Assembly (NCBI RefSeq): GCF_017795745.1
Contig: NZ_CP059067.1
Location: 4,030,001 to 4,094,000, forward strand
Direction of reading: 5' to 3'
Source of the DNA: Rhizobacter sp. AJA081-3
Lineage (GTDB): Bacteria; Pseudomonadota; Gammaproteobacteria; Burkholderiales; Burkholderiaceae_C
DNA length: 64,000 nt
The translations under genes and the position numbers were made by a program. Below are positions 1 through 15,323 of the stretch, piece by piece. Each line of letters starts with the position of its first letter. Position 1 is the first letter of the stretch. A model generated the notes under the pieces. It saw only the letters and a program-made list of their open reading frames with translations, searched no databases and was not told where the DNA came from.

Positions 1-33
1 CGATCCTATCGTTTCCGCATAGGAGCGGCACAC

Positions 34-53
34 AAGTTCGGAGCCCCGAACTT
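34..53 (-). terminator. hairpin downstream of the zinc-ribbon gene
   Basis: A perfect 8-bp inverted repeat (34-41 and 46-53) with a 4-nt loop lies 17 nt past the stop codon of the minus-strand gene at 71-523. It is placed as expected for a transcription terminator, but no T-tract follows, so Rho-independent function is uncertain. Confidence 0.4.
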
Positions 54-70
54 CGAACTTGCGCCGCAAC

Positions 71-523
71 TCACTGTGCGTCTTTGCAGGCCGCGCACCG
101 AACCTTCCACCATCCCGATCTTTGGAGGACTCCTGGTGCGCCGCAGCGTTCACAGATGTGGGCACTATCCGTTTCTGCCCTCGCCACTCGCTCCCTCAGT
201 TTCACGAAGAGCTCATCGACATCATGTGGCGGGATCTGGATTCGCTTGGTTCCATCGGGGAGGAAGAGATCTGCGTTGATCGTCTTCCTGCCGTCCACCT
301 GGTAGTAGAAGCGCAGAGTGCCGAACTTCTCCTTCAGCTGCAGGATCCTGAAATCGTGCTCGTCGCCGATTAGGGCGTCGATGTCGCGGACCAGTTCTCG
401 CACCAACGAAACCCATCCGCGGGACAGGTAGGAACCTGAGGGTTGTAGGCCCTTGAAGACCCGCGGGAACTCGTTCACCAGTTGCGCCAGCGCTTCAGGC
501 TCCTGGTCATCCGTCTCATCCAT
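71..523 (-). CDS. hypothetical protein with C-terminal zinc ribbon
   Basis: This 150-residue protein has no family I can name. The middle part, around the sequence LKEKFGTLRFYY, resembles small proteins often seen in phage and island cargo. The C-terminus carries a CERC...CAAC pair of CxxC motifs, which points to a zinc ribbon. The start is supported by a GGAGAA-type ribosome binding site about 8 nt upstream. It is the last of three minus-strand genes (AAA ATPase, phosphoesterase, this gene), 192 nt after the phosphoesterase and followed by a hairpin. A role as an accessory or nucleic-acid-binding partner of that trio is only inferred from position. Confidence 0.65.
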   Translation of the reverse strand: MDETDDQEPEALAQLVNEFPRVFKGLQPSGSYLSRGWVSLVRELVRDIDALIGDEHDFRILQLKEKFGTLRFYYQVDGRKTINADLFLPDGTKRIQIPPHDVDELFVKLRERVARAETDSAHICERCGAPGVLQRSGWWKVRCAACKDAQ

Positions 524-715
524 GATCGTTCTCCTTCAATTCTGCGATGGGTCATTTCGACCCCGGTTTTGTGTCGCGCAACCGCGCGAAGACCAAGGCG
601 GCTTGGCCTATGTGCACTGGCCAGCGTAGGAGATTGGGTCGAGACGAAATCGGTGGAATGCGGTCGCACCGCCGGCATTGATCGCGAGTCACCCATTCAG
701 TGCGCGCGCCGCCCA

Positions 716-1531
716 TCACTCGACCTCCACGATCAAGCCGGGATCGAAGGCGCGGTTCTCGAATCCACCACGCAACGGTGTCGGGTAGCCCCTGGGATTG
801 CAAACGACTCGGCAGTCTCGGACGCGGTAGTCGAACCCTCGGTGCGTGTGGCCGTGGATCCACAGTCTGGGAACTTCGAAGAAGGCCTCAGGCAACTCGG
901 TGACATAGGCAGCGCTTGTCGGATCGTCTGCGAAGCGCGCGGAAAGCGAGCCGCGATTGGGCGCATGGTGCGTGACCACGACCGTCGGCCCCGCAAACGG
1001 CTCTTCCAGCTTGCGCGCCAACCACGTGCGATGCTGCCGATGAATCGCCAGCGTATCGATCGCGCGCAGCCTGCAACCCGCGCGTTTCGTGACGGTTCGA
1101 ATGAGCTCATAGTCGTTGAGCCACATCTCGCACATGCGCATCGATTCTTCAGTGCGCGGCACCAGCAACCCGTCTTCTCCCGGCAGGCACAGCTCGAAGT
1201 CGGTCCACAGGGTGCAGCCCAGGAAACGGATGCTGTGTAGAACCAACTCGTCGCACTGCAAGAGGTGGAGCCCAGCGCTGCGAGCGAGATCAGCCTCCTT
1301 GCGCATTCGTAGCTCTTCGGCTCGCAGCTCGCGTCCGTAGTATTCGTGGTTGCCTGGCACATGGATCACGTGCCGGCCGCCGAACACGGATCGCCGTGCC
1401 ATCCAGCGGACGGCACTCGAGCCGGGGCTGTGGATGTCCCCTGCGAGGACCACAACGTCAGCGTCCAGGTTCGAAGGCGGAACGAATGTCGCGAACTCGA
1501 CGTGAAGGTCTGAGTAGATTGCAAGGCGCAT
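716..1531 (-). CDS. calcineurin-like metallophosphoesterase
   Basis: This 271-residue protein shows the full set of metallophosphoesterase motifs in order: SDLH near the N-terminus, GDIH, GNHEYY, THH, and GHTH near residue 225. These residues bind the two metal ions of the active site. The family hydrolyses phosphoesters of nucleotides, nucleic acids or proteins; the substrate cannot be told from sequence. An AGGAGA ribosome binding site precedes the ATG. It starts 68 nt after the AAA ATPase gene ends, on the same strand, so the two are probably cotranscribed. There is no signal peptide, so it is cytoplasmic. Confidence 0.85.
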   Translation of the reverse strand: MRLAIYSDLHVEFATFVPPSNLDADVVVLAGDIHSPGSSAVRWMARRSVFGGRHVIHVPGNHEYYGRELRAEELRMRKEADLARSAGLHLLQCDELVLHSIRFLGCTLWTDFELCLPGEDGLLVPRTEESMRMCEMWLNDYELIRTVTKRAGCRLRAIDTLAIHRQHRTWLARKLEEPFAGPTVVVTHHAPNRGSLSARFADDPTSAAYVTELPEAFFEVPRLWIHGHTHRGFDYRVRDCRVVCNPRGYPTPLRGGFENRAFDPGLIVEVE

Positions 1532-1599
1532 GTTGCTCTGTCTCCTTCAAGTCCGTGAAGAGCCTCTTGGCCCGAGTTCGATCCGTGCCTTGGATTTGC

Positions 1600-3345
1600 T
1601 CAGTGCCTTCTCAGCGCTCGGGCCCATGAGGCGACCGCCTGTTCCGTAGCGACGCGCAGCTGCCTCGCGCTGGTGATCCGCTCCCACGGGAGATCGAGCT
1701 CTCGCATCTCTGGCAGCGCCCACCGATCTAGGCTCCAGCGCTGTGCGGCCTCGGCAATGACGTTCTCCGCGATGGTCGGGAAGTGCTCGGGCTCGGGCTG
1801 ATCCAGCTTCAGAACACGCATGCGCGACACCAAGGGCGCGGCGATCGGCGTCAGCCGATTTGCCGTGGCCAGCCACAGGACGCCGGAGTAGTCGCAAGTG
1901 GTCTTCAGGAACACGTCCGTGTGACGCGAAGCGGTTTCCGGCTCGAGCAACGCCAACAGGTACGACTGCAGGCCCGATCCCTCGCGCTGGTAGTCGACCG
2001 CCTTGTCCAGTTCGTCCAACAGGACGATCGCGGAGGCACTACGGCGAGTTGCCATCAGCGTGGCCAAGTCACTCGGTTTGCCACTCGCCCACCCTCGGCT
2101 TGTCCCTCCCAGCACTTTGGTGTCCGAGGTACCTCCGAGCGGCAGATCCAGACGAGGCACTCCGAGCTCGACGGCAATCCGCCGTGCCAACCGAGACTTG
2201 CCGCTGCCGGGCAGGCCGACCAGGAGTGTGGGCGGCATGCCGAGCACTCGAACACCAAGCGCTGCTTGGCCGCTGAGCTCGACGAAGATGATCGCGAGTA
2301 CATCGCCCGCCCACGGAAATTCGTCTAACAGGCGCTGCTGCATGACCCTCAGCGCGGCCACTGATGGCATGAGCGCCAGCTGCAGTGGCTCTTCGAGTAC
2401 CAGGTGCCGATCCACTTCGTCCTTGTCGTAGCGGTCGGTGGTACGCAGGATTGGCGAGCGGCAGACCACCAGGCTCGGTGCGTCGCTGGCCTTCATTGGC
2501 TCGTGCACGGCGCTGGTGCCGTTGCCTTTAGGTTCCGTGGGCTTGATGCGAGACTCGATGGACAGCAAGAGTCTGGACTGCGCCATTTCATGCCAGGCCG
2601 TGTCGCCGAGCATGTTCCGCGGATCCTTGCCGGGCCGGGCCTTCTGGCGTGCCTGAACGAGCGCGTTCCACAGCGGCTGACCGCACTCCAGGAAGTCCTG
2701 CTTCAGGCCGACGGCGTTCAAACCTTGCCCGGCGACGCCACCGTGGAAGTCGTTGTAGTTCAAACGCAGACACAGCAGCGCGGCATCGATATCGTCCACT
2801 TCCCAGCGGGCGAATGGCGAGGGCAATGAGGGCTCGCGCAAGGCGGCCAGGCATGTTGCGCGCATGTGCGGGCGGACGCGCTCGTGCAGATCGACAGATT
2901 CAGGTGAATCAGCTTTGTCGACCAGCTGTGGCATGCCCTCGGTGACCTGCAGTGGCGACACGGCCGCCTCAAGGCAGTAGCCGTTGATGAGATGAAGCCT
3001 CCGAGCGGGCGTGTCGTCGTGCGTAAGTGCCAGTTCCTGCAACAGGAGGCTCGCGCGCGAGGCAGATGCAAACGACTCGCGAAGATTGGCCGCCGCCTCG
3101 GAGGCCAGGCGAAGGCAATTTGCGAGCTCGATCGGCTTGAGCCGACGCGGCAGGCACAGCAGCAGCGTCGCTCTCAGTGGCCGCAGTGCCGCAGGCGGGC
3201 ATGCATGAGTCAAGAGCAATTCGAGGAAGTTCAGTGCGCCCTTGCTGGTCGGGTCGTTAGGCGCAGCGCGGCGAAGCCCTGCGACAAGCTCGGCAATGCG
3301 CCTTGAAGGCGGGCGCCTTGGCGTCGCTGGTGAATTGGTGGACAT
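1600..3345 (-). CDS. Lon-like AAA+ ATPase without protease domain
   Basis: This is a 581-residue protein. The N-terminal 350 residues are mostly helical and unrecognised. The C-terminal AAA+ module has a Walker A GLPGSGKS at about residues 377-384 and a Walker B IVLLDELD at about 440-447. Between them is a GG-rich segment (LPLGGTSDTK...GGTSRGW) that resembles the same region of Lon ATPases. The chain ends shortly after the AAA small domain, so the Lon S16 peptidase domain is absent. I chose the ATG at 3345 because residues upstream of it in the open frame look non-coding. It leads a minus-strand set with a phosphoesterase and a zinc-ribbon protein. The role is unknown; an ATP-driven remodelling or defence function is inferred from context. 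Confidence 0.75.
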   Translation of the reverse strand: MSTNSPATPRRPPSRRIAELVAGLRRAAPNDPTSKGALNFLELLLTHACPPAALRPLRATLLLCLPRRLKPIELANCLRLASEAAANLRESFASASRASLLLQELALTHDDTPARRLHLINGYCLEAAVSPLQVTEGMPQLVDKADSPESVDLHERVRPHMRATCLAALREPSLPSPFARWEVDDIDAALLCLRLNYNDFHGGVAGQGLNAVGLKQDFLECGQPLWNALVQARQKARPGKDPRNMLGDTAWHEMAQSRLLLSIESRIKPTEPKGNGTSAVHEPMKASDAPSLVVCRSPILRTTDRYDKDEVDRHLVLEEPLQLALMPSVAALRVMQQRLLDEFPWAGDVLAIIFVELSGQAALGVRVLGMPPTLLVGLPGSGKSRLARRIAVELGVPRLDLPLGGTSDTKVLGGTSRGWASGKPSDLATLMATRRSASAIVLLDELDKAVDYQREGSGLQSYLLALLEPETASRHTDVFLKTTCDYSGVLWLATANRLTPIAAPLVSRMRVLKLDQPEPEHFPTIAENVIAEAAQRWSLDRWALPEMRELDLPWERITSARQLRVATEQAVASWARALRRH

Positions 3346-3731
3346 GGCAGTTCCCGGTCGTGGAGTCAATCCGGGGCTCTGCACTCGGTCTGGGCACTGA
3401 GTGCCCACGATGCGCAAATGACAAGGCCCCGGCGTTGCGGGGCCTCGATCGGAGAAAGGCAGAGCTCGCTACTAGCTCAGTGCCGTCATCACGAAAACGC
3501 CCCCGCAGCTGCAACCTGTATGGATGCCTGCGAGAGCTGAACAGCGAGAGCCCAAGCGAAGTAGCTCGTCATCCTGCAAGCGTAGTTCATTCCGCCATGA
3601 TCTTGCAAGCGCGGCGACTCGCTACTGACTCCCAGTTCTGGCAAGGTGATCGACGGTTGCTTCAGCTCGTCCTCGGCGTCACACTGGCATAAGTCAGTCC
3701 TCAGCGCTCCAGCAACTTCAACTCGACAACC
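3346..3731. other. intergenic gap with one strong hairpin
   Basis: This divergent gap lies between the AAA ATPase gene and the antitoxin gene. It should hold the promoters of both, but I see no clear -35/-10 pair. A perfect hairpin at 3424-3445 is listed separately. Open frames here in both directions lack family resemblance and good start sites. Confidence 0.5.
3424..3445 (-). terminator. GC-rich hairpin
   Basis: A perfect 8-bp stem (3424-3431 with 3438-3445) has a 6-nt loop. On the minus strand it is followed by TTGTCATTT, which is weakly T-rich. It lies just upstream of the AAA ATPase start, so it could stop transcription coming from the right or act as an attenuator. Confidence 0.4.
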
Positions 3732-4286
3732 GTGAGCATTCCTGAAGAACACCCGGAGATCGCCAACGGAAGAACGAGCCGTCGCGTGCAAGAGCCGCAT
3801 GGCGGTGAGCACGCAGCCGGGTCTGCACCCGCCAGGCTCTTCTCGCCGAACAGCGCGACTGTCGCTGCATTGCTGGGTGGGCCCAAGATCCTGCAATGCG
3901 AATCGCTTGAGATGCTCGATATGCACAACGCAATCATGCGGGGATTACCGGCGGCAACTTTGGTGCACCTCACGAAGTCACTGGTCCACCTCGGCGTGTT
4001 GGACTTGGGCCGTGCTCTGGGTGTGAGCGAACGAACCATCCATCGCCATGTCGAGCAGAACTCGGGGCGACTGGGAACAGCGTTAGGAAGCAGGGTGTGG
4101 CGCTTTGCCGAGTTGTTGTCACACGCAATGATCGTGTTCGGCGGCCAAGAGAAGGCCGAGCGTTGGTTGAGTTCCAACGTGATGGGGCTGGATGGCATGC
4201 GGCCGATCGACTTGCTTCAGACCTCCGTGGGTGCGAAGTTGATCGACGAGCTCCTTGGCCGTCTCGAGTACGGCGTGTACACGTGA
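3732..4286 (+). CDS. DUF2384 antitoxin (Xre/MbcA/ParS family), orphan
   Basis: This is a 184-residue protein. The N-terminal half holds an Xre-like helix-turn-helix (DLGRALGVSERTIHRH, about residues 95-110). The C-terminal half is a DUF2384 toxin-binding domain, recognisable by AERWLSSNVMGLDGMRPIDLL and the final LLGRLEYGVY. In this family the antitoxin represses its own operon and neutralises a RES-domain toxin, an NAD-consuming enzyme, encoded immediately downstream. No RES coding sequence follows here, only non-coding debris, so it is an orphan or the remnant of a deleted module. The GTG start at 3732 is poorly supported; the first 35 residues may not be translated. Confidence 0.75.
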   Translation: MSIPEEHPEIANGRTSRRVQEPHGGEHAAGSAPARLFSPNSATVAALLGGPKILQCESLEMLDMHNAIMRGLPAATLVHLTKSLVHLGVLDLGRALGVSERTIHRHVEQNSGRLGTALGSRVWRFAELLSHAMIVFGGQEKAERWLSSNVMGLDGMRPIDLLQTSVGAKLIDELLGRLEYGVYT

Positions 4287-4942
4287 TGCAGGATCTGCGG
4301 TGGCCAAATCTGCCGGGTGCCGCCGAAGGGGAGGATTCAACCATCCGGAAGTTCGAAACCGAACCCTGTTTCACGGAGACGCCGGGCTGACCGTGGACGG
4401 GATCCCGCCAAGGCGAAGGGTCGAGACTCTCGCGCTCCAGCCGCGAATCAATCGATGCCGAGGGTGCACGCAAGACTGCAGCAGTTCGATGCAGTTGGGG
4501 CCGGGCACTTGCGCTGACCACCGCGCTTGGCGCAATATATATCGCATGTTGGTCATGTCGATGCGCTCCTCCCCGTGCAACTCAAGCTGGATCTTGGGCG
4601 CCGACAGGTCGCGCGCGCGGCGGTGCACGACCAGCGTAGTCTTCTCAGACTTGGCCTCTGGGCGTTCGTGTGTCCGGCGGCATGCCGCGCGCCCGCGACT
4701 TGACCTGGCCGGCCACCGCCGCAGCCCCCCCTTCCGCCATCGTCTAGGCCACCAGCCCGGCCGCCTACCGCAGACCGCTCGCCGAATAGCGACTCATCGC
4801 TAGCCAGTCAACAGCGGTCGAGGTGCACAGCCAGCACGATCAACTCGTGCCGGGATGCAATTTCCTCGCCTCTCTTCGAACTACGCCTTGCCGCGGACTC
4901 CACTTCCGCGCATGAGCGGTCGCACATCTATCGAGGCGCCCA
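4287..4942. other. 656-bp gap, degenerate sequence where a toxin gene is expected
   Basis: No intact gene is visible. The position right after the antitoxin should hold a RES toxin, but all frames are interrupted and none shows RES motifs. On the minus strand, about 4520-4680 reads as a plausible protein fragment, rich in charged residues and in frame with no start codon upstream. This may be the remnant of another gene. An AT-rich patch lies at about 4530-4550. Confidence 0.45.
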
Positions 4943-6655
4943 ATGCTTGCAGGAACCATTCTTCCCTTCGTCCCGCAGCCGTACGAGGACGAACTTCTTT
5001 CATCGTGGATCGGTCGCGTTGCACTTCATAACGGAAAAGGGGCGTGGATGACACTGCTTCGCAAGGCTGGGATCTCCCAAAGGAGACGCTACTTCCACAA
5101 TCACATTCCTCAATATTGCCCGCAAGTCCGTCAGTTGCTGGGAGCTCTAGGCTGGTCAGTCGAAGATGCATATCTCCAACTAACCCCGGCGCCGTTCCTA
5201 TTGGCCTTCTGTGCGCATCCCACTGCCCGCATTGGCGTCGATGTATCAGTACCAGAGGTTCTAGGTAACATGATCCAACCCGCTGTAGCCTTACATCGCC
5301 GTCGCGCCACTTCCTTCGCGCGAGCACTGCGATTCTGTCCAATGTGCATCGCGACGGATCTAGAAGAGTTCGGAGAAGCCTACTGGCACAGGCAGCACCA
5401 GCTTCCGTTGCCCGCCTTCTGCGCAAAGCACTCTCATCCCCTGTTCTTCCGCTGCCAAAGTTGCGGCCACCTTCCAACGAACATTCCCTATCTTCAGGCT
5501 CCGCTTCTACCTGTGCGTTGTCGATGCGGCTTCGACTTGCGCACCACGAGAATGGCAAGGGGCGGGCCTTCCGAAGAGGCACTGAAGCAGATTCAACTTG
5601 GAAGCGATTCCCTGAGTCTTCCACTTCCCTCCTGGAATGGACTGCATGTGCGAAGAGCGCTTCAACGTTTGGCACGGAGTCAGAACTGCTCCGGTCTAAA
5701 TGAGTTCTTAAACGCCGCACGAAAATCGGCCTTCGATGGAATCGCTGAGAACTTGGATTCGCTAAAGCGGCGGACGCTCCCTGGCCGATACTCTGCGACC
5801 ACCCTTGCCGCCGCTGCAGTTTCCCTAGGGCTGGACATGCGAGGCGCGGTGGATCTCTTTCAAGCGGAATCAGCGAGCACGGTCGCTCCACTTGCCTCCG
5901 CTCGGACCAGGGTCACTCTGAAGCACTTAGCCAAACTCAGCGTGCCTGAGCTTCGAGAAGCATTCGCAAGAAGTTTGAAGACTCGCGTCTTGGACTATCG
6001 CTTGCTTGCCATTCTTCAACTTCGCGATCTTGCTTGGTTGCGCGAGTGTGATCTCTATCGCTCCCCGCTCATCGAGCTACCCACTATCGAGGGGGATCGG
6101 GCAACCATCACGCGGATCAGAAACGGAGGAGCTGCATCACGCCACTACATCACTTCAGAGATGGCGAACATGCGCGCTAGGCTCAGGGATCTTGAGTGGT
6201 ACCAAAGGGGACTTCGCGAGATTCAGCGAGGACACGAGCATTTGAGGATCGGGCGGATGGACTGGACGAAACTGCGTTCGGAGCTAATTGGTCTGATGGA
6301 TCGGTATGAGTCCGATCCCGGCAGGCCCCAACGAGTGCCATTGCTACTACTTGCACAGGCCACCGGACGCGCGGAGAACACCATTCAGGGTTGCTTCGAT
6401 AGGTTTCCTGATGTGCGAGAGCGCTTCAGTTCATTGAAGGCGTCACTTCCTTTGAGGCGCCTTCAGTGGGCGGCAATCACGATTCGAAAGGAAGGCCGAG
6501 TCGTCATGCAAAGCACCGTGATCCAGGTCAGCGGTATCACGGCACCTTACGATGACTCTATCCGCCAAATGGCGCGGCGCGTTGCGCAAGAGGCTAACGA
6601 GAAGATTACGGTCTCGGAAAGCCGCACCTGGAAGGTCTTGACGGATGCCGGCTAA
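4943..6655 (+). CDS. TniQ/TnsD-family transposition target-selection protein
   Basis: This 570-residue protein opens with the TniQ signature (P..YEDELLSSWIGRVALHNG, residues 9-31). It then has a zinc-binding cluster: C132 and C135, C160 and H163, C171 and C174, and further cysteines at 193 and 195. The rest is a long helical and basic C-terminal part, in the size range of TnsD (508 residues) and larger than minimal TniQ proteins. TnsD binds a specific DNA site, the 3' end of glmS for Tn7, and recruits TnsC and the TnsAB transposase. This copy lies inside an island that abuts glmS, which fits that role. A GAGG ribosome binding site lies 8 nt before the ATG. No tnsABC genes are nearby. Confidence 0.85.
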   Translation: MLAGTILPFVPQPYEDELLSSWIGRVALHNGKGAWMTLLRKAGISQRRRYFHNHIPQYCPQVRQLLGALGWSVEDAYLQLTPAPFLLAFCAHPTARIGVDVSVPEVLGNMIQPAVALHRRRATSFARALRFCPMCIATDLEEFGEAYWHRQHQLPLPAFCAKHSHPLFFRCQSCGHLPTNIPYLQAPLLPVRCRCGFDLRTTRMARGGPSEEALKQIQLGSDSLSLPLPSWNGLHVRRALQRLARSQNCSGLNEFLNAARKSAFDGIAENLDSLKRRTLPGRYSATTLAAAAVSLGLDMRGAVDLFQAESASTVAPLASARTRVTLKHLAKLSVPELREAFARSLKTRVLDYRLLAILQLRDLAWLRECDLYRSPLIELPTIEGDRATITRIRNGGAASRHYITSEMANMRARLRDLEWYQRGLREIQRGHEHLRIGRMDWTKLRSELIGLMDRYESDPGRPQRVPLLLLAQATGRAENTIQGCFDRFPDVRERFSSLKASLPLRRLQWAAITIRKEGRVVMQSTVIQVSGITAPYDDSIRQMARRVAQEANEKITVSESRTWKVLTDAG

Positions 6656-7137
6656 GCGAGCCACCACCCATCCAAGATGGCCGATCCACTAAGTAAGGAC
6701 CTAGATATCGGGCCAGACCAGGCGGGGCCTCATGAAAATCCTGGGCGCGGACAGGGACATCGACCGAAACCCGAGGGCATCTCTGCCGCCTGGTACCTAT
6801 GGGATGTAGCCCGAGGATCGCTTTGCAGCGCTTGCTGTCCTTGATCTGTGCACGTTCACTGGCAGCTCTCTCGTGGCATGCGGTCCTTCAACCGAGGGCG
6901 CACGGCACACGCGCGATCACTTCCGCTTGGTCGCGCCAAGCGGTCACTCGCCGCGCTATATGGGCAATGCGATAGTTGCGAGCGAAGAAGTGAACCAAGA
7001 ACGCGAAACCGAACGATATGCCGTACCGGATCAAACGTGGACTGGCAGCTGACACGTCCACTCCAGCGGACCGATGATTTGTTGTCATCGGGCCTAAGAT
7101 TCCGGCTTGGCGAACTAGGGCAAACAGCGCCGGAACC
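6656..7137. other. 482-bp gap upstream of the HNH-NACHT gene
   Basis: No gene is supported here. Short open frames exist on both strands, but they lack ribosome binding sites and family resemblance. The gap should carry the promoter of the HNH-NACHT gene. It contains one clear inverted repeat at 6923-6943. Confidence 0.5.
6923..6943. repeat. inverted repeat upstream of the HNH-NACHT gene
   Basis: A perfect 8-bp inverted repeat (6923-6930 with 6936-6943) has a 5-nt spacer and lies about 195 nt before the HNH-NACHT start. It could be a terminator for incoming transcripts or a protein-binding site; no T-tract is present on either strand. Confidence 0.4.
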
Positions 7138-10100
7138 GTGGCGACACGCGATGACTTTTCCCCAACGACCAAGCGCACGCTCGCGGGACGCGCCGGCTAC
7201 GCTTGCTCGAATCCTGACTGCCGGCGCCTAACCGCCGGCGCGGCGCTTGGCGACGACGCCAAGGTCGTTAGTGTTGGCGTCGCCGCGCATATCAAGGGAG
7301 CGGCCCCAGGTGGCCCCCGCTATGACCCGCTGCAGACGGCCGAAGAGCGGCGACACGCATCGAACGGCATTTGGCTGTGTTCGGCTCACGCGAAGCAGAT
7401 CGACGACGATCATGCCCACTTCACTGTCGACACGCTCAAGACCTGGAAGCAGCAAGCGGAGGAAAGATCGGCGCTCGCGATCCTCACTCTGCAGGCACCC
7501 GATGCAAACGCGCCGCAGCCCGAAGCCGGATCATCGACAGTCGAATTGGCGCAACGGCTGGGCCTCGCTCCGCGGGACAACGTCGAGGCGGTAACGGCGC
7601 GGCTGCGGGCGGCCGCTGCGCGCGACCTCGACGCGTTTGTCGCGGCACTCAAATCTCCCGCTGACGCGATCGCGCTCGGATTGCGGCTGATCGAAAGCGG
7701 GCGTGTCACGCCGTTCGGAGCGGCGGGACTCGCCGCCGCGATTGGAACGTTCAACGAGATCGTTGTCGTCGCCCCGCCTGGCACGGGGAAGACCACAACA
7801 CTTCTGCAAGTCGCCCGCAGCATCGCGGCCAAAGAGAACCTTGTCGCCGCGTTCGTTCCGTTGAGCGAATGGTCTGCGCAGGGGCAACCATTGCTGCAGT
7901 CGATCGCCCGGCGGGCCGCGTTCGCCGGGGAGCGCGAAGAGCATCTGAAACTTCTCGCCGGCGCGGGCCGCTTGGTCCTCTGCATGGATGGCTGGAACGA
8001 GCTGGATACGTCGTCGCGAAAGCGCCTACGTTCTGAAGTCCAAGGCATGCAGCGCGACTTTCCCGGCCTCGGCATCGTGATGAGCACGCGCGTTCAGGCG
8101 CTGGATGTGCCGATCTCAGGCCCGGTGGTCGAGATTGAACCGCTGTCGGAAGCGCAACAGCTGGCTATCGCGCGCGCCTACCGCGGCGAAGCCGGGGAAG
8201 GCTTGCTCGATCAGGCCTGGCGAACCCGCGGCCTCCGCGATCTTGTAGCGATTCCGCTGTATCTAACCAAGCTCCTCTCGGACACGCCCGGCGGAAACCT
8301 GCCCACGACGAAAGAGGAAGTGCTACGCCTCTTCGTCGCTGAGATTGACCGCAGCGCGGCCGCGCACGAGGTCTTGCAAAGCGCGGCCGCGGGATTTCAT
8401 GGAGAGATGCTGTCGGCGATAGCCATCGATGCGACCGTGGCTGACAGCGTCACGGTGTCGGAGCATCGCGCCCGGAGTCTGATAAGCGATGTAGCCGGCC
8501 GGCTTGTCCGCGAAGGCCAGATGGCGGCACCTCAGCCCGACGCTGTGCTGGCAGCCCTTGTCAGCCACCACCTGCTGGTCCGCACCGCGAGCGGCGTCGA
8601 GTTTCAGCATCAACAGTTTCAAGAGTGGTTTGCCTCGCATGAGGTCGAAGCCCTGATGCGGGCCGCCGCATCCGGCGATGCGGATGCTAGGCATCGTCTG
8701 CGAACCGTCGTCCTGAACGCACACGCGTGGGAAGAGGCAGTGCTATTCGCATGCGAGCGGGCTTCGCGTGGCGACGCTGACGGTGTCGCGGGCGCGGCGA
8801 CCCTCATTCTTGAAGCGCTCACCGTTGACCCAATGCTCGCCGCCGCGGCGATCTATCGAAGCTCGGATGCATTGTGGAGTGCCGTCAAGGATCGCGTCGT
8901 CGAGTTTGCCGGCCGCTGGCATACGCCGAAGGAGATCGACCGCGCGGTCCGGTTCATGATAAAGACCGGCCGCGCCGAGTTCGCGGACATTCTGTGGTCA
9001 TTCATCGCGGACCCCGACGATCAGGTGTACCTCAAGACGATGCGCGCCGGCGGCCGCTTCCGGCCTTCAGTGTTGGGAAGCGACATAGCGGGCCGCATCT
9101 CGCAGCTGCCACCCAAGCACCGATCGCACTTGCTGTCCGAGCTTGTGACATACGGCGGCATCGAGGGGATCGAAACCGCCACAAGCATCGCCCTGTCCGA
9201 CAATGACATCGACGTGAAGACCAGCGTCGCGGAAGCGCTGCACTTCCGACAGGCAAATCAGCAGATGCAGCGCCTCGTGACGGCGGCGCCGCGTGAAGTT
9301 TGGCAGGCACTCGCGCGGAAGGGATACGCGGAGGATTCACTGCCACCCGGACTTGCAGAGCGCCTGCGCCAGGAAGCCGATCAATTGATGCACGAAGAGC
9401 GAAGCGCTACGCAAAAGCTGCGCGCGTTGCTGCGCCGGAATGACGATCGGCAGGCAGTGGCGGCGGCAATCGGGCCCTTGATCGAGACCGGCGACTTCAG
9501 CGACAAGGAGGAACGCGCCGGAGGTGCGATTGACGAGGCCGGCCGACTCTACCCCGAAGTAGTCAGGGCCGCGCTTCTCGGCCGGCTGGAACGGCGACTG
9601 CCGTTCCCCTTCCGCACCGAAGAGCTACTGCGAGGGATCGATGTCGTTGTTGACGAAGGGCCTATCGCCGAACTGGCGCTGGCGGCTGGCGTCGACCGTC
9701 AACTCTCAAACGCCGCGGCAGGGCTTCTCGGCCTCAACACGACGGGCAAGCTCATCGACGCACTGCCTGGCATGCGCGAACAGCTAAAACTGTCGCCGCC
9801 GGGAATCACCTACGATGATTACCATCGCGTTCTAGGCCTGATCGCGTTGACGCCGATGGAGTCCTTCATGGCGGCCGTGCAGGCGCGTGCGGCCACTTCA
9901 GACCCAACGAGCATCGGGCACTTAGCCGATCTCATCGCGCGGCACGGCGAAAGCGGGGATCGTGGCCGCCTGGGTCTCAGTGACGCCTCCCGCGACGCAT
10001 TGATCGCGATCGTCCGAAAGTGGGTCGACGTATTGCTCGCCGACGAAAACTCGCCGCGGCGGATCCTTGGCGAAGTTGCGCGTGTCATCGAGAGGCTGGC

Positions 10101-11586
10101 CGCTCCGGAACTGGCGGAGCCACTTGCGCGCATGCTGGCCCGCGACCTGAAGCAATGGCGCCAACAGCGTGAAGAGCGCGCCGCTGCGTGGGCGCGCGGC
10201 ATTCATGATGCCGCGTCGGAAGCCTCTCACTCCTGGGCCTTGCAGTATGCGCGCGCGTTTGTCGCGATTGGTGACGATCAGTCGATCGCGACTTTGGAGT
10301 CCCATCTCATGGACGCCGGCCATGGCGGGTTCGGGATCGACGCCGCCGGGGCGCTGTGTGCGATTGGGCAGCGACAGCTAGGCATTGCGAACGACACGTC
10401 CTTCAGAGGGTCGCCGGAGTTCTCCAATGTGCGGGCGCGGCGCGCTGAGCGGCAAGGCTCTACAGCCCCGGCGACTTGCTCGATTGCAGAGCGGATCTTT
10501 GACTCCGTGGAGAAGCTCCTGCAAGACGGCGCAGACGGCGAGGCGCAGGTCCACGCCCTGCAGCTCGCCGCAACCGGCCTGGGCCTACCCTACGGTGACA
10601 AGCGCACCATCATCGATCGGCTGCAGCGACTGCCGCAGCCATACGGCACGAAACTCCGGTTCTTCACGGCCCTTGTGAACGCGGGCGAACTGATCGACGC
10701 CCAGTTGATCGTTGAATGCATCGACGCGCTGCTCGAAGACGCGAAGACCAAGCCCTGGCTGCTGCAGGAGAACCAGGGCGAGATCGATCGTTGGCTGTTG
10801 CTGCTGCCGTTCACCAGCCGGCCGGAGGTGACGTTGGAAGTGCTCGCGCGCTTGCACCCGCACATTCGCTTGCCATGGCGTCTTCGTCCGTTGCTGTCAG
10901 CTCTGGGGTCCGCTCCGTCCGACACGGCCGAGCAAGTTCTCATGGGCCTGGCAAAGGAGGACGCGCGATTCCTGTCCGACTATGACTGGTTTGCCGCTCT
11001 GGAGAAGCGCGATACGCTGTCGTCACTGCGCATGCTGCTCGATCTGATCTGCGGGGGCGAGGCAAAGGGCGAGGGGGGGCGGCCAGACACCTGGACCTTT
11101 GGCCGAAGGCTCGCGGCCGGCATGCAGTCCCATCCCGAGTTTCGTTCCGATGTCTATGCGCGCGTAGCATCCGGCGTCGCGCCGCCGGCGATGGCGGTCC
11201 TGGAATACGCCGTGGCGGAAACGCCTGACGAAGCCGGCGTCATGCTCCTTGTCGGCAGCCACAGCGCCACCGGAAGAGCATTCAGCGGCACGCTCGACTC
11301 GGCAATCGAGAACCTTGCCGTGGAGCGGCGGCCGCTGTCAGACTGGGCCGGTGCGTATGAGCAAATCAGCGCGCCAGTGCCGTCGCTTCGCAGGCGCCTG
11401 TTCGAGCTATCCCGCACTGCCACCGGCGGCGAGGCCAGCCTTGCACTGGCGTGCCTGGTTCACATCGATGAACTGCGCGACAGGCATGGTGTAGCTTCAG
11501 GCGAGCCACGCCACCCCGATATCGCTACCGGCGCGCCTTGGCCGACGCTGCTGACCCGTAGCGTGACTCCCGAGGCAAAACAGTGA
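7138..11586 (+). CDS. HNH nuclease-NACHT/STAND NTPase fusion, candidate antiphage NLR-like protein
   Basis: This is a 1482-residue protein. Residues 1-110 form an HNH-type nuclease domain: metal-binding C23 and C28, the catalytic-type histidine in VAAHI (H51), N76, and a second pair C81 and H84. A central P-loop NTPase follows, with Walker A APPGTGKTT (about 212-220) and Walker B LVLCMDGWNEL (about 279-289), consistent with NACHT/STAND ATPases. The remaining ~1000 residues are alanine/leucine-rich helices resembling HEAT or TPR-type repeats. The order effector-NTPase-helical sensor is that of bacterial NLR-like defence proteins (Avs and bNACHT classes). In these, a phage protein triggers oligomerisation and activates the effector. 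It starts at a GTG with a weak GGAA site. A DUF6387-like gene follows after 31 nt. Confidence 0.88.
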   Translation: MATRDDFSPTTKRTLAGRAGYACSNPDCRRLTAGAALGDDAKVVSVGVAAHIKGAAPGGPRYDPLQTAEERRHASNGIWLCSAHAKQIDDDHAHFTVDTLKTWKQQAEERSALAILTLQAPDANAPQPEAGSSTVELAQRLGLAPRDNVEAVTARLRAAAARDLDAFVAALKSPADAIALGLRLIESGRVTPFGAAGLAAAIGTFNEIVVVAPPGTGKTTTLLQVARSIAAKENLVAAFVPLSEWSAQGQPLLQSIARRAAFAGEREEHLKLLAGAGRLVLCMDGWNELDTSSRKRLRSEVQGMQRDFPGLGIVMSTRVQALDVPISGPVVEIEPLSEAQQLAIARAYRGEAGEGLLDQAWRTRGLRDLVAIPLYLTKLLSDTPGGNLPTTKEEVLRLFVAEIDRSAAAHEVLQSAAAGFHGEMLSAIAIDATVADSVTVSEHRARSLISDVAGRLVREGQMAAPQPDAVLAALVSHHLLVRTASGVEFQHQQFQEWFASHEVEALMRAAASGDADARHRLRTVVLNAHAWEEAVLFACERASRGDADGVAGAATLILEALTVDPMLAAAAIYRSSDALWSAVKDRVVEFAGRWHTPKEIDRAVRFMIKTGRAEFADILWSFIADPDDQVYLKTMRAGGRFRPSVLGSDIAGRISQLPPKHRSHLLSELVTYGGIEGIETATSIALSDNDIDVKTSVAEALHFRQANQQMQRLVTAAPREVWQALARKGYAEDSLPPGLAERLRQEADQLMHEERSATQKLRALLRRNDDRQAVAAAIGPLIETGDFSDKEERAGGAIDEAGRLYPEVVRAALLGRLERRLPFPFRTEELLRGIDVVVDEGPIAELALAAGVDRQLSNAAAGLLGLNTTGKLIDALPGMREQLKLSPPGITYDDYHRVLGLIALTPMESFMAAVQARAATSDPTSIGHLADLIARHGESGDRGRLGLSDASRDALIAIVRKWVDVLLADENSPRRILGEVARVIERLAAPELAEPLARMLARDLKQWRQQREERAAAWARGIHDAASEASHSWALQYARAFVAIGDDQSIATLESHLMDAGHGGFGIDAAGALCAIGQRQLGIANDTSFRGSPEFSNVRARRAERQGSTAPATCSIAERIFDSVEKLLQDGADGEAQVHALQLAATGLGLPYGDKRTIIDRLQRLPQPYGTKLRFFTALVNAGELIDAQLIVECIDALLEDAKTKPWLLQENQGEIDRWLLLLPFTSRPEVTLEVLARLHPHIRLPWRLRPLLSALGSAPSDTAEQVLMGLAKEDARFLSDYDWFAALEKRDTLSSLRMLLDLICGGEAKGEGGRPDTWTFGRRLAAGMQSHPEFRSDVYARVASGVAPPAMAVLEYAVAETPDEAGVMLLVGSHSATGRAFSGTLDSAIENLAVERRPLSDWAGAYEQISAPVPSLRRRLFELSRTATGGEASLALACLVHIDELRDRHGVASGEPRHPDIATGAPWPTLLTRSVTPEAKQ

Positions 11587-11617
11587 AGCCCCGCCGGCGG
11601 AGTACGCAGGGGGCCAC

Positions 11618-12517
11618 GTGGTAGGAAAGAAGCGAACGCCCTCTCCCCCCGGGTGGTACGTACGGGATGCCTATCGCGCCGCGGAGGAGTTGGACGTGGG
11701 CGATTGGCTCCTCAATCTGAGCGTTCGCCGATGGCTGCACAGCGACACACGGCCGCAGACAGAAGCTGCTCTCAGAGCAGCCGGCCCCGTACTCCGACGG
11801 GCAAACGGCCAGCAGATCAAGCGCATGCACATGGCCGACGCCCATCGCTGGGTCTACTCGTTCAGCTCGAGCGAGTGGGAGGACCCGTTTCAGGCGCTCG
11901 ACGAGGCCTGCGAACGTCCTCAGCTGCCACCTGACATTTGGAACGCGCTGCAATTTGGAAACGTACGCTCCGGCATAGCTCCGCTGAGCGTCGGCGCGCT
12001 GTACGCGTTCGAGAAGATGCTGCCCGACGACGTGCGGGCTCGAGGCGTTCGACTGCAGAGTGGCGATCGCTCAGCCACGGGGCCAAAGGCATTCGCTGGA
12101 AGGCTTGACCATGCCTTCTCTCCTCAGATGGTGAGCCGGTTCGTCCGCATCGACCTCTCGCTTCCTGACGACGTGCTTCGCGCTGATCTCGATGCGTTTC
12201 TCGCTTCAGAACGCCAAAGCCTGGCGCAGAGTGGCGGCGAACAGCCTTACCGCGAAGCCGCGGGCCTGAAGTTGAAAGCTCACGAACTTCGTACTCTCTC
12301 GAAGGTTGGCCTTCTACAGTTCCTTGACCTAGACCGTTGGCAACGGGCGGAGGGGCTCAATCTCAGCCTATACGCGGTCCGAGAGATGGCCGACGTCGTC
12401 GATCGTTCGCGTGAGAGCGAACTGCGTCATCGTGTGCAGCTAACGCTGAATCAGTTTCAGCTCCATGCGTGGTTTGCACGTCTCGACAGGGGCGGTGGAA
12501 GGTCCAGGCGATCTTAG
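11618..12517 (+). CDS. DUF6387-like hypothetical protein
   Basis: This is a 299-residue protein, mostly helical, with neither signal peptide nor membrane segment. The N-terminal pattern (short basic lead, then W/L-rich helices around DWLLNLSVRRWL) resembles DUF6387 proteins, which are frequent in mobile elements. This match is by eye and weak. It begins with GTG 31 nt after the HNH-NACHT stop, on the same strand, so cotranscription is likely and it may be an accessory part of that system. No catalytic motif is seen. Confidence 0.65.
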   Translation: MVGKKRTPSPPGWYVRDAYRAAEELDVGDWLLNLSVRRWLHSDTRPQTEAALRAAGPVLRRANGQQIKRMHMADAHRWVYSFSSSEWEDPFQALDEACERPQLPPDIWNALQFGNVRSGIAPLSVGALYAFEKMLPDDVRARGVRLQSGDRSATGPKAFAGRLDHAFSPQMVSRFVRIDLSLPDDVLRADLDAFLASERQSLAQSGGEQPYREAAGLKLKAHELRTLSKVGLLQFLDLDRWQRAEGLNLSLYAVREMADVVDRSRESELRHRVQLTLNQFQLHAWFARLDRGGGRSRRS

Positions 12518-12641
12518 CTGGAACTCGTGTCGCCATCTTCCTGCATACATGCCTCCGAACGACGCGGATCATTCCGATCAGCCTGGCGTACCTACCCGAC
12601 GGCGTCTTGTGGGACGAACTGGCGATTGACACGAGGGGCCT

Positions 12642-12797
12642 ATGTCCGAGAGGAAGAACGTCTACGCTAGCTTCAAGCGCGACCGAGACAGGCTATGGGC
12701 CCTGATCTCGCGCGACCTTCGAATCGTGGCCATCACCGCAATCTGCGCAACAGCCGGTACGCCCTCCCTTCTGCATGCCGTCACTCGTTGGCTCTGA
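12642..12797 (+). CDS. possible 51-residue small protein
   Basis: A short open frame starts at ATG 12642, preceded by GAGGGG at good spacing (about 4-5 nt). The product has a basic N-terminal half (SERKNVYASFKRDRDR) and a hydrophobic stretch (LRIVAITAICATAG) that could span a membrane. It lies 124 nt after the DUF6387-like gene. It could equally be a chance frame in the degenerate region before the transposon end; there is no homology evidence. Confidence 0.3.
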   Translation: MSERKNVYASFKRDRDRLWALISRDLRIVAITAICATAGTPSLLHAVTRWL

Positions 12798-13253
12798 CGT
12801 GAACTGCTCGCTGGGGGTCGTCGCCGCCGGTCGCTCGATGAGCCTGAGGAACGCTCGAATCTTGCACGGCTAGACGCCCGCTCTCGGCAAGAGCCGTCGC
12901 TGGGTAAGGTTGTAGCGAATGTCCGCCGTCTAGAGCGGTCGATGCGGTGTGCTAGCGCCGCCGAAACCCGTCGACAGGTTCTGACGACACCAAGAGTTGG
13001 GCTCACCGGGTCGTCGGCACAACGGCCACATCTGCCTGTGCGGGGCTCGGACTCGTGACCTGGGTGCCACTCGATCCCTGGGAATAGGCTTCCCGCCAAC
13101 ATCTAACCTACTGGCGGCTCGTGTCAGGTCCGGTGGATCCTCGACGAGTTCGCTTCCCGTGAGCAACTCCGCACTTGGTTCGCTGGCGCGCCAGTCCCTG
13201 GGTGAACACAGAGCGCGGCCACCACCTCGCAGGTGCCGTCCGGACAGATGCCG
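12798..13253. other. 456-bp gap before the transposon end
   Basis: No gene is supported in any frame. The sequence looks like decayed cargo between the last open frame and the terminal repeats of the element. Confidence 0.5.
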
Positions 13254-13343
13254 GACTTATTGTCATAAGTTCCCGTAAATCAAAAACATTGTCATGTGTG
13301 ATGGATAACCAAAAGAATCTTTCCCGCAATATTTGTCAGCACA
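13254..13343 (-). repeat. Tn7-like transposon end with TGACAA repeats
   Basis: Read on the minus strand from glmS inward, the end begins TGTGCTGACAAATATT followed by GCGGGAA (13343 to 13321). This resembles the Tn7 right end, which also has TGTG, then GACAAA, then GGGAA with the same 7-nt spacer between GACAA and GGGAA. TGACAA recurs in the same orientation at 13338-13333, 13294-13289 and 13265-13260. The third reads GACAATAAGTC, close to a Tn7 left-end TnsB site. A second CGGGAAC lies at 13275-13269. Repeated TnsB sites in one orientation are typical of Tn7-family ends. The 5 nt outside (AGCAG on the plus strand, 13344-13348) would be the target duplication. Confidence 0.65.
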
Positions 13344-13359
13344 AGCAGGCATCGCTTGT
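13341..13359 (-). terminator. weak hairpin after glmS
   Basis: A 6-bp inverted repeat (ACAAGC at 13341-13346 with GCTTGT at 13354-13359) follows the glmS stop by 11 nt. It straddles the proposed insertion junction, so if it terminates glmS it would have been formed or preserved by the insertion. The stem is short and no T-tract follows. Confidence 0.25.
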
Positions 13360-13370
13360 CGGACGCTGCC

Positions 13371-15239
<1,869 letters not shown>

Positions 15240-15323
15240 GGGTGGCTTCCTTTGGCTGGGCAGGGATCGCATCGTAGGAACACCCCCGAGGCGATTGATT
15301 GCAATTTTCGTCTCAGTATGGAA

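Follow-up and report, generated by a model that had tools for sequence, protein, structure and literature searches.

A tniQ gene beside glmS in Rhizobacter sp. AJA081-3 as the probable second target selector of a truncated Tn7-like transposon

The tniQ gene lies in an island that ends at glmS

We studied a tniQ gene in the closed 5.40-Mb genome of Rhizobacter sp. AJA081-3 (G000). The window, that is, the whole stretch of 64,000 nucleotides that was analysed, is G000:C1:4030001-4094000, and a genome coordinate equals the window coordinate plus 4,030,000. The features are listed in Table 1. The tniQ reading frame (P0004) starts with ATG and has no internal stop, its product matched the Pfam TniQ model with E=8e-19 (69 bits, cut-off 27), and both zinc motifs of the TniQ family are intact. 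No sequence feature other than TniQ/TnsD-type domains was found in P0004. The gene lies in DNA of about 57% G+C, below that of its surroundings. A sequence-only reading of the window had placed a 570-residue TniQ in an island ending at the glmS attTn7 site, and this was borne out by the intact reading frame, the Pfam match and a Tn7-like end 27 nt from the glmS stop codon. DNA identity with relatives ends at this stop codon in all eight that were compared, so the DNA to the left of glmS is variable. In the island part of the window (1-13343), Pfam recognised no transposition gene other than tniQ.

Table 1. Features of the island and of its border with glmS (window coordinates unless marked as genome coordinates)
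Feature	Position	Strand	Remarks
tnsB, P0001	genome 3996917-3999055	same as tniQ	TnsB-type DDE transposase, 5' truncated
tnsC, P0002	genome 3999103-4000494	same as tniQ	AAA_22 (6e-11) and TniB
tnsD-type selector, P0003	genome 4000738-4002711	same as tniQ	Pfam TniQ and TnsD domains, 657 aa
Metallophosphoesterase gene	716-1531	-	Pfam Metallophos; same G252-shared block as the AAA gene
AAA (Lon-like ATPase) gene	1600-3417	-	Pfam AAA (5e-13); cargo or older island DNA
Xre/MbcA-type antitoxin gene	3732-4286	+	NCBIfam NF049845; probably cargo
tniQ, P0004	4943-6655	+	570 aa, Pfam TniQ; probable Q selector of a tnsA-B-C-D-Q system
HNH-like and NACHT protein gene	7138-11586	+	1482 aa, Pfam NCAB2 (4e-25) and NACHT; likely defence cargo
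DUF6387 gene	11618-12517	+	Pfam PF19924; cargo
glmS-side transposon end (tns-distal end)	13228-13343	-	terminus 5'-TGTGCTGACAAATATTGCGGG read leftwards from 13343; inner limit approximate
TnsB-site-like sequence	13318-13337	-	GACAAATATTGCGGGAAAGA; top matrix score, 17.0 bits
AGCAG	13344-13348		candidate 5-bp target-site duplication; adjoins the TGT terminus
glmS, attachment gene	13371-15272	-	Pfam SIS and GATase

The AAA gene lies in a block with 86% DNA identity to the glmS island of another genome, G252, in which the island segment at genome 4029011-4034288 also occurs. A second glmS in G252, considered as a duplication, was rejected as an error-rich contig overlap. No recognisable RES toxin follows the Xre/MbcA antitoxin gene, and the same holds in G252. 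The 1482-residue protein has an HNH-like N terminus, with PADLOC matches to PDC-M68A and SAVED_HNH, a NACHT domain and a C-terminal NCAB2 domain. The stretch at 7138-12517 thus looks like an NLR-type defence gene with its neighbour, the DUF6387 gene; no relatives of this pair were present among the loci fetched. No cas effector genes were found among the island proteins scanned, which represent part of the island reading frames. To the left of the window, a 9.5-kb catabolic block (genome 4018734-4028256; IclR, acyl-CoA ligase, hydratase/dehydrogenase, MmgE/PrpD) is 79% identical to G194:C7, with which it is colinear; the glmS of G194 is on a different contig. Given the segment shared with G252, several insertions may be stacked in the island.

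tnsB, tnsC and a second selector stand at the far end of the island

A Pfam search of the whole genome gave exactly two TniQ genes, the one in the window and a second, P0003, which lies 34 kb to the left of P0004 and adjoins tnsB and tnsC. The tnsB-tnsC-tnsD block (3996917-4002711) is located 27-33 kb to the left of window position 1 and 32-38 kb from tniQ, with about 32 kb between the end of tnsD (4002711) and the start of tniQ (4034943). Q is the last transposition gene ahead of the glmS-side end, and reads towards that end. P0001 has no Pfam match; its nearest solved structure is the TnsB of Tn7 (1e-25 in PDB), and its acidic catalytic residues D271, D359 and E396 are invariant among four relatives. 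The view from the window edge was therefore misleading, since the transposase genes are present at the far end of the island. The absence of nearby tnsABC, as claimed from the window, holds for the window and fails for the island. Of the proposed inverted order with tnsABC before position 1, the part concerning tnsB and tnsC was right, and leftward extension yielded these two genes, with neither tnsA nor a second end. The arrangement can be explained without help in trans, which had also been put forward.

The end next to glmS matches the left-hand transposase

The terminus of the island begins with TGT, 27 nt after the glmS stop codon. AGCAG is present on the glmS side only, its partner copy having gone with the other end. 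To score TnsB sites, we took 11 tnsA-side ends from species other than those of G000 and G175, made a 20-nt matrix of them and scanned 159 kb of G000 with it on both strands (about 318,000 positions). The 11 sites are independent data that were aligned by eye on GG after the G000 end had been seen, so that the procedure was not fully blind. The top position in the 159 kb fell inside the glmS-side end, 6 nt in from the TGT terminus. By our own arithmetic, which considers position alone, a top match in 20 given positions is expected by chance about once in 16,000. The end contains one strong TnsB site, and its other two repeats are weak by the matrix. Because the best TnsB-type site sits in this end, the glmS-side end and the left-hand transposase belong together. 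Two other approaches were discarded: ATTGTCA/TGACAA repeats taken as the end motif gave no partner end, and the motif derived from relatives was used instead; a seven-site matrix was too weak as sole evidence, with scores of 14-15 at other places too.

The opposite end of the element is missing

TnsB homology extends upstream of the first ATG of tnsB (KYFRITHVFEKNAYW), where there is no in-frame ATG, GTG or TTG and a stop codon stands slightly further up. On the opposite strand, about 60 bp separate the start of brxA from the last tnsB codon with homology. The missing 5' part of tnsB corresponds to about its first 25-45 codons. We found no TnsA by Pfam genome-wide in G000, with a model that misses some true TnsA proteins, and none in 159 kb of G000 with a profile made from five TnsA proteins; this profile does find TnsA in G254, which belongs to the training set, and in G252, which does not. 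Likewise, no second (distal) transposon end with TnsB sites was detected in the 159 kb searched, the sole end being that on the glmS side. One could argue that the element is complete and active, with a tnsA too divergent to be detected and an unusual distal end, and the Pfam negative is indeed weak, as Pfam missed the true TnsA of G254. However, the five-protein profile, which recovers TnsA in G254 and G252, was negative here, no start codon is available for the conserved N terminus of TnsB, and the place before tnsB, held by tnsA in 15 of 15 loci, is occupied in G000 by brxA on the opposite strand. A complete element is thus very improbable.

Since neither TnsA nor a second end was found, we consider the element a truncated remnant and not a complete Tn7-like transposon, in agreement with the earlier suggestion of a defective element, to which the truncation of tnsB also points. 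We infer that the distal end, tnsA and the start of tnsB were lost through one deletion or replacement. With TnsA and one end absent, excision and reinsertion on its own would not be possible, judging from Tn7 and from PMC10293859, and the G000 element is probably immobile by itself. The intact Q reading frame may reflect a recent truncation or residual use. As no distal end remains, it is the matching parts, and not a closing target-site duplication, that point to one truncated element spanning 3996.8-4043.3 kb, which we consider probable. The best reading of the G000 element is a 5'-truncated, two-selector Tn7-like transposon with cargo between D and Q.

As to the DNA beyond the truncated tnsB, BREX as cargo was rejected, brxA alone being recognised and no other BREX gene occurring among the five large reading frames beyond it. 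These five minus-strand frames (L003:4186-19074 and L102:67-1788; genome 3979186-3995788), of 1537, 2275, 421, 560 and 573 aa, have no significant Pfam or PADLOC match and represent a candidate uncharacterised defence locus. The sequence AGCAGTGT, considered as the distal junction, matches at four places in the 159 kb, none of which is plausible as a junction. Within 108 kb, no core neighbour of glmS came to light beyond the far side of the island, and a 209-bp sequence shared by G006 (near glmS) and position 3944.4 kb proved to be a small lysine-rich gene and not an island boundary. Independently of this locus, L134:8830-9621 encodes a clear TnsA (tblastn 8e-47) that is missed by Pfam PF08722, which calls for caution with annotation based on that model.

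Relatives carry both selectors in one gene cluster

In about ten Burkholderiales/Gammaproteobacteria, tnsA-B-C-D-Q form a single cluster. The clearest layout is that of Dechloromonas denitrificans ATCC BAA-841 (G364/L150), where tnsA-tnsB-tnsC-tnsD-tniQ follow each other almost without gaps on one strand, all five being homologous to the genes considered here. In G175, a complete genome of the same family as G000, TnsA and homologues of tnsB, tnsC, P0003 and P0004 stand side by side, with the selectors arranged differently from those of G364. TnsC identity to G000 is 55% in G364 and 40% in G175. P0004 shares only 26-33% identity with its closest relatives, which in G175 and G364 adjoin tnsBC genes of matching type. 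When 399 genomes of the order were searched, a P0004-like TniQ (E<1e-20) was present only in G000 and G364, and the same two alone had a P0001-like TnsB (E<1e-60). A TnsB profile scan of named genomes, of which a first attempt with poor peptide patterns had given no matches, returned 17 loci, 16 of them with the G000 type of TnsB; in these 16, Q mostly adjoins D or C, and tnsA directly precedes tnsB in each of the 15 with sequence there.

In a tree of 35 selectors, the operonic D and operonic Q proteins split into two clades with supports of 100/99 each. P0003 falls in the D clade, on whose side the TnsD of Tn7 is also found, and P0004 in the Q clade, within which its position is unsure owing to long branches. 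A smaller selector tree agreed, with weaker support. The expectation that the window TniQ might group with glmS-targeting TnsD was thus not confirmed: P0004 falls among second selectors, in a clade of their own, and it is P0003 that groups on the Tn7 TnsD side. As these gene families cluster together in relatives, co-occur and share the operonic clades, P0004 and the left-hand genes are parts of one system. We therefore propose, with a probability of roughly 85%, that P0004 is the second target selector, and fifth gene (Q), of a two-selector Tn7-like transposon at glmS.

Separation of Q from the other genes was also seen in G254, of the same genus as G000 and with a contig that matches QJOU01000018 of Piscinibacter caeni MQ-18. 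There, A-B-C-D lie on one contig with no adjoining Q, and a Q-clade protein stands 0.4 kb from glmS on a separate contig. Together, G000 and G254 suggest cargo uptake between D and Q. A broader proposal, which we regard as unlikely, is that in a lineage of Tn7-like elements whose two selectors are both full-size, cargo is inserted between tnsD and tniQ, as seen in G000 and G254 of this one genus, such that tniQ stays by the attachment-side end and tnsABC-D at the other; tniQ would then outlive the loss of the transposase end and could recruit TnsABC in trans.

The lone TniQ beside glmS in G254 would also suit a TniQ kept as a stand-alone selector for its own use, for example in regulation or in blocking incoming elements, independently of tns genes, and so would the reading frame and zinc motifs of P0004, which are intact despite the truncation of the element. 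We find this scarcely credible: the gene is part of a tns cluster in almost all relatives, G254 keeps the A-B-C-D set elsewhere in its genome, and P0004 shows nothing beyond its TniQ/TnsD-type domains.

Orientation of the element and stacking at glmS

In the Tn7 of E. coli NZ_CP033762, 159 bp separate glmS from tnsA, and the reading direction of the genes is away from glmS; the glmS-proximal position of the tns genes had been correctly stated for Tn7 in the sequence-only reading. In G175, the glmS-side end begins 20 nt beyond the glmS stop. The tns genes lie 61-69 kb from glmS on the distal side, and tnsABC read towards glmS; the 16-mer TTGCAWTAAATGCGGG has inverted copies at both ends and none elsewhere in 108 kb. 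The G000 element has the same orientation as that of G175. The gene order is thus inverted relative to E. coli Tn7, with glmS-distal tns genes, and this is a known variation, since Tn7-like elements have been reported to vary in the side of the att site (PMC11406308).

Beside the distal end of the G175 element, the end of another element type begins (G175:C1:1959500-1959560; TGTGATCG...AATAAAGACTGTC). As the two ends stand back to back, elements stack at glmS in G175. At least four types of end sequence were seen near glmS, and glmS is a busy, stacked insertion site in the bacterial family of G000. Five genomes combined one large contig with a TniQ gene, and in four of them a TniQ was located no more than 65 kb downstream of glmS; the chance of at least four of five is about 2e-7, a figure that serves as a guide only, as this small convenience sample was partly found via TniQ itself.

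Such stacking raises the question of whether the 9-kb stretch that adjoins glmS (about 4290-13343) and contains tniQ and the NACHT gene could be a separate, younger (mini-)element with no tnsABC of its own, moved in trans and stacked before an older tnsBCD element. In line with this, the DNA to the left of the 9 kb, up to window position 4288, recurs in the G252 glmS island directly before another tnsA, two ends stand back to back in G175, and the tniQ of G254 is also apart from tnsABC-D. Nevertheless, neither the stretch at 4288-4943 nor any place to its left yielded a second TnsB-type end, P0004 and the left-hand genes are members of one operonic system, and the glmS-side end matches the TnsB family of these genes. 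This makes a separate element distinctly improbable, and we retain the single truncated element.

Comparison with known systems and proposed mechanism

Dual tniQ-tnsD Tn7-like transposons have been described at 998 loci, where one selector usually exceeds 400 aa and the other is substantially smaller (Faure et al. 2023, PMC10293859). The G000 element resembles them in having tnsB and tnsC, and in its relatives tnsA, with two TniQ-domain selectors, one of them with a TnsD-type C terminus; in contrast, its two selectors, of 657 and 570 aa, are both large, a distance of 32 kb separates D from Q, and the element lacks tnsA and one end. Two selectors with one tnsABC are seen as A-B-C-D-Q in several species, and in G000 split by 32 kb and without A. 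With E. coli Tn7 it shares attachment at the 3' side of glmS, a TGT terminus 20-30 nt from the stop codon and a TnsB whose nearest relative in PDB is that of Tn7, while differing in its glmS-distal tns genes that read towards glmS. The G364/L150 and G175 elements have the same five gene families, but comprise a complete set with tnsA, a tnsA-side end and adjacent D and Q.

From these comparisons, a tnsA-tnsB-tnsC-tnsD-tniQ transposon probably inserted at the 3' side of glmS, its tns-bearing end pointing away from that gene. In G000, cargo of about 32 kb separates tnsD from tniQ. The tns-bearing end has been cut off: the distal end, tnsA and the start of tnsB are missing and brxA stands there instead. 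By analogy with Tn7, TnsD would bind the end of glmS and, via TnsC, bring TnsA and TnsB with the paired ends to attTn7, and TniQ may act as an alternative selector feeding the same TnsC for a second target class (PMC10293859). We infer such a division of labour between the D and Q selectors. The G000 element is a fossil of a known kind of mobile element, ordinary but instructive: it adds a tnsA-B-C-D-Q sub-lineage of about ten members, with an end motif and with the attachment gene tns-distal where visible, which is useful for asking what the second selector recognises.

Variants of the gene set and of its location were also observed. In the Paraburkholderia loci L156 and L160, two Q-type selectors follow tnsABC, and D is absent. 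On a plasmid of Azonexus hydrophilus (L130), a glmS gene has a TnsD 5 kb downstream and tns genes reading towards it. Finally, one and the same element occurs at two sites in Pollutimonas bauzanensis (L158 and L159), and the shared sequence begins near CCTTTAACTCCCTAATATTGCGG, which marks the tnsA-side terminus.
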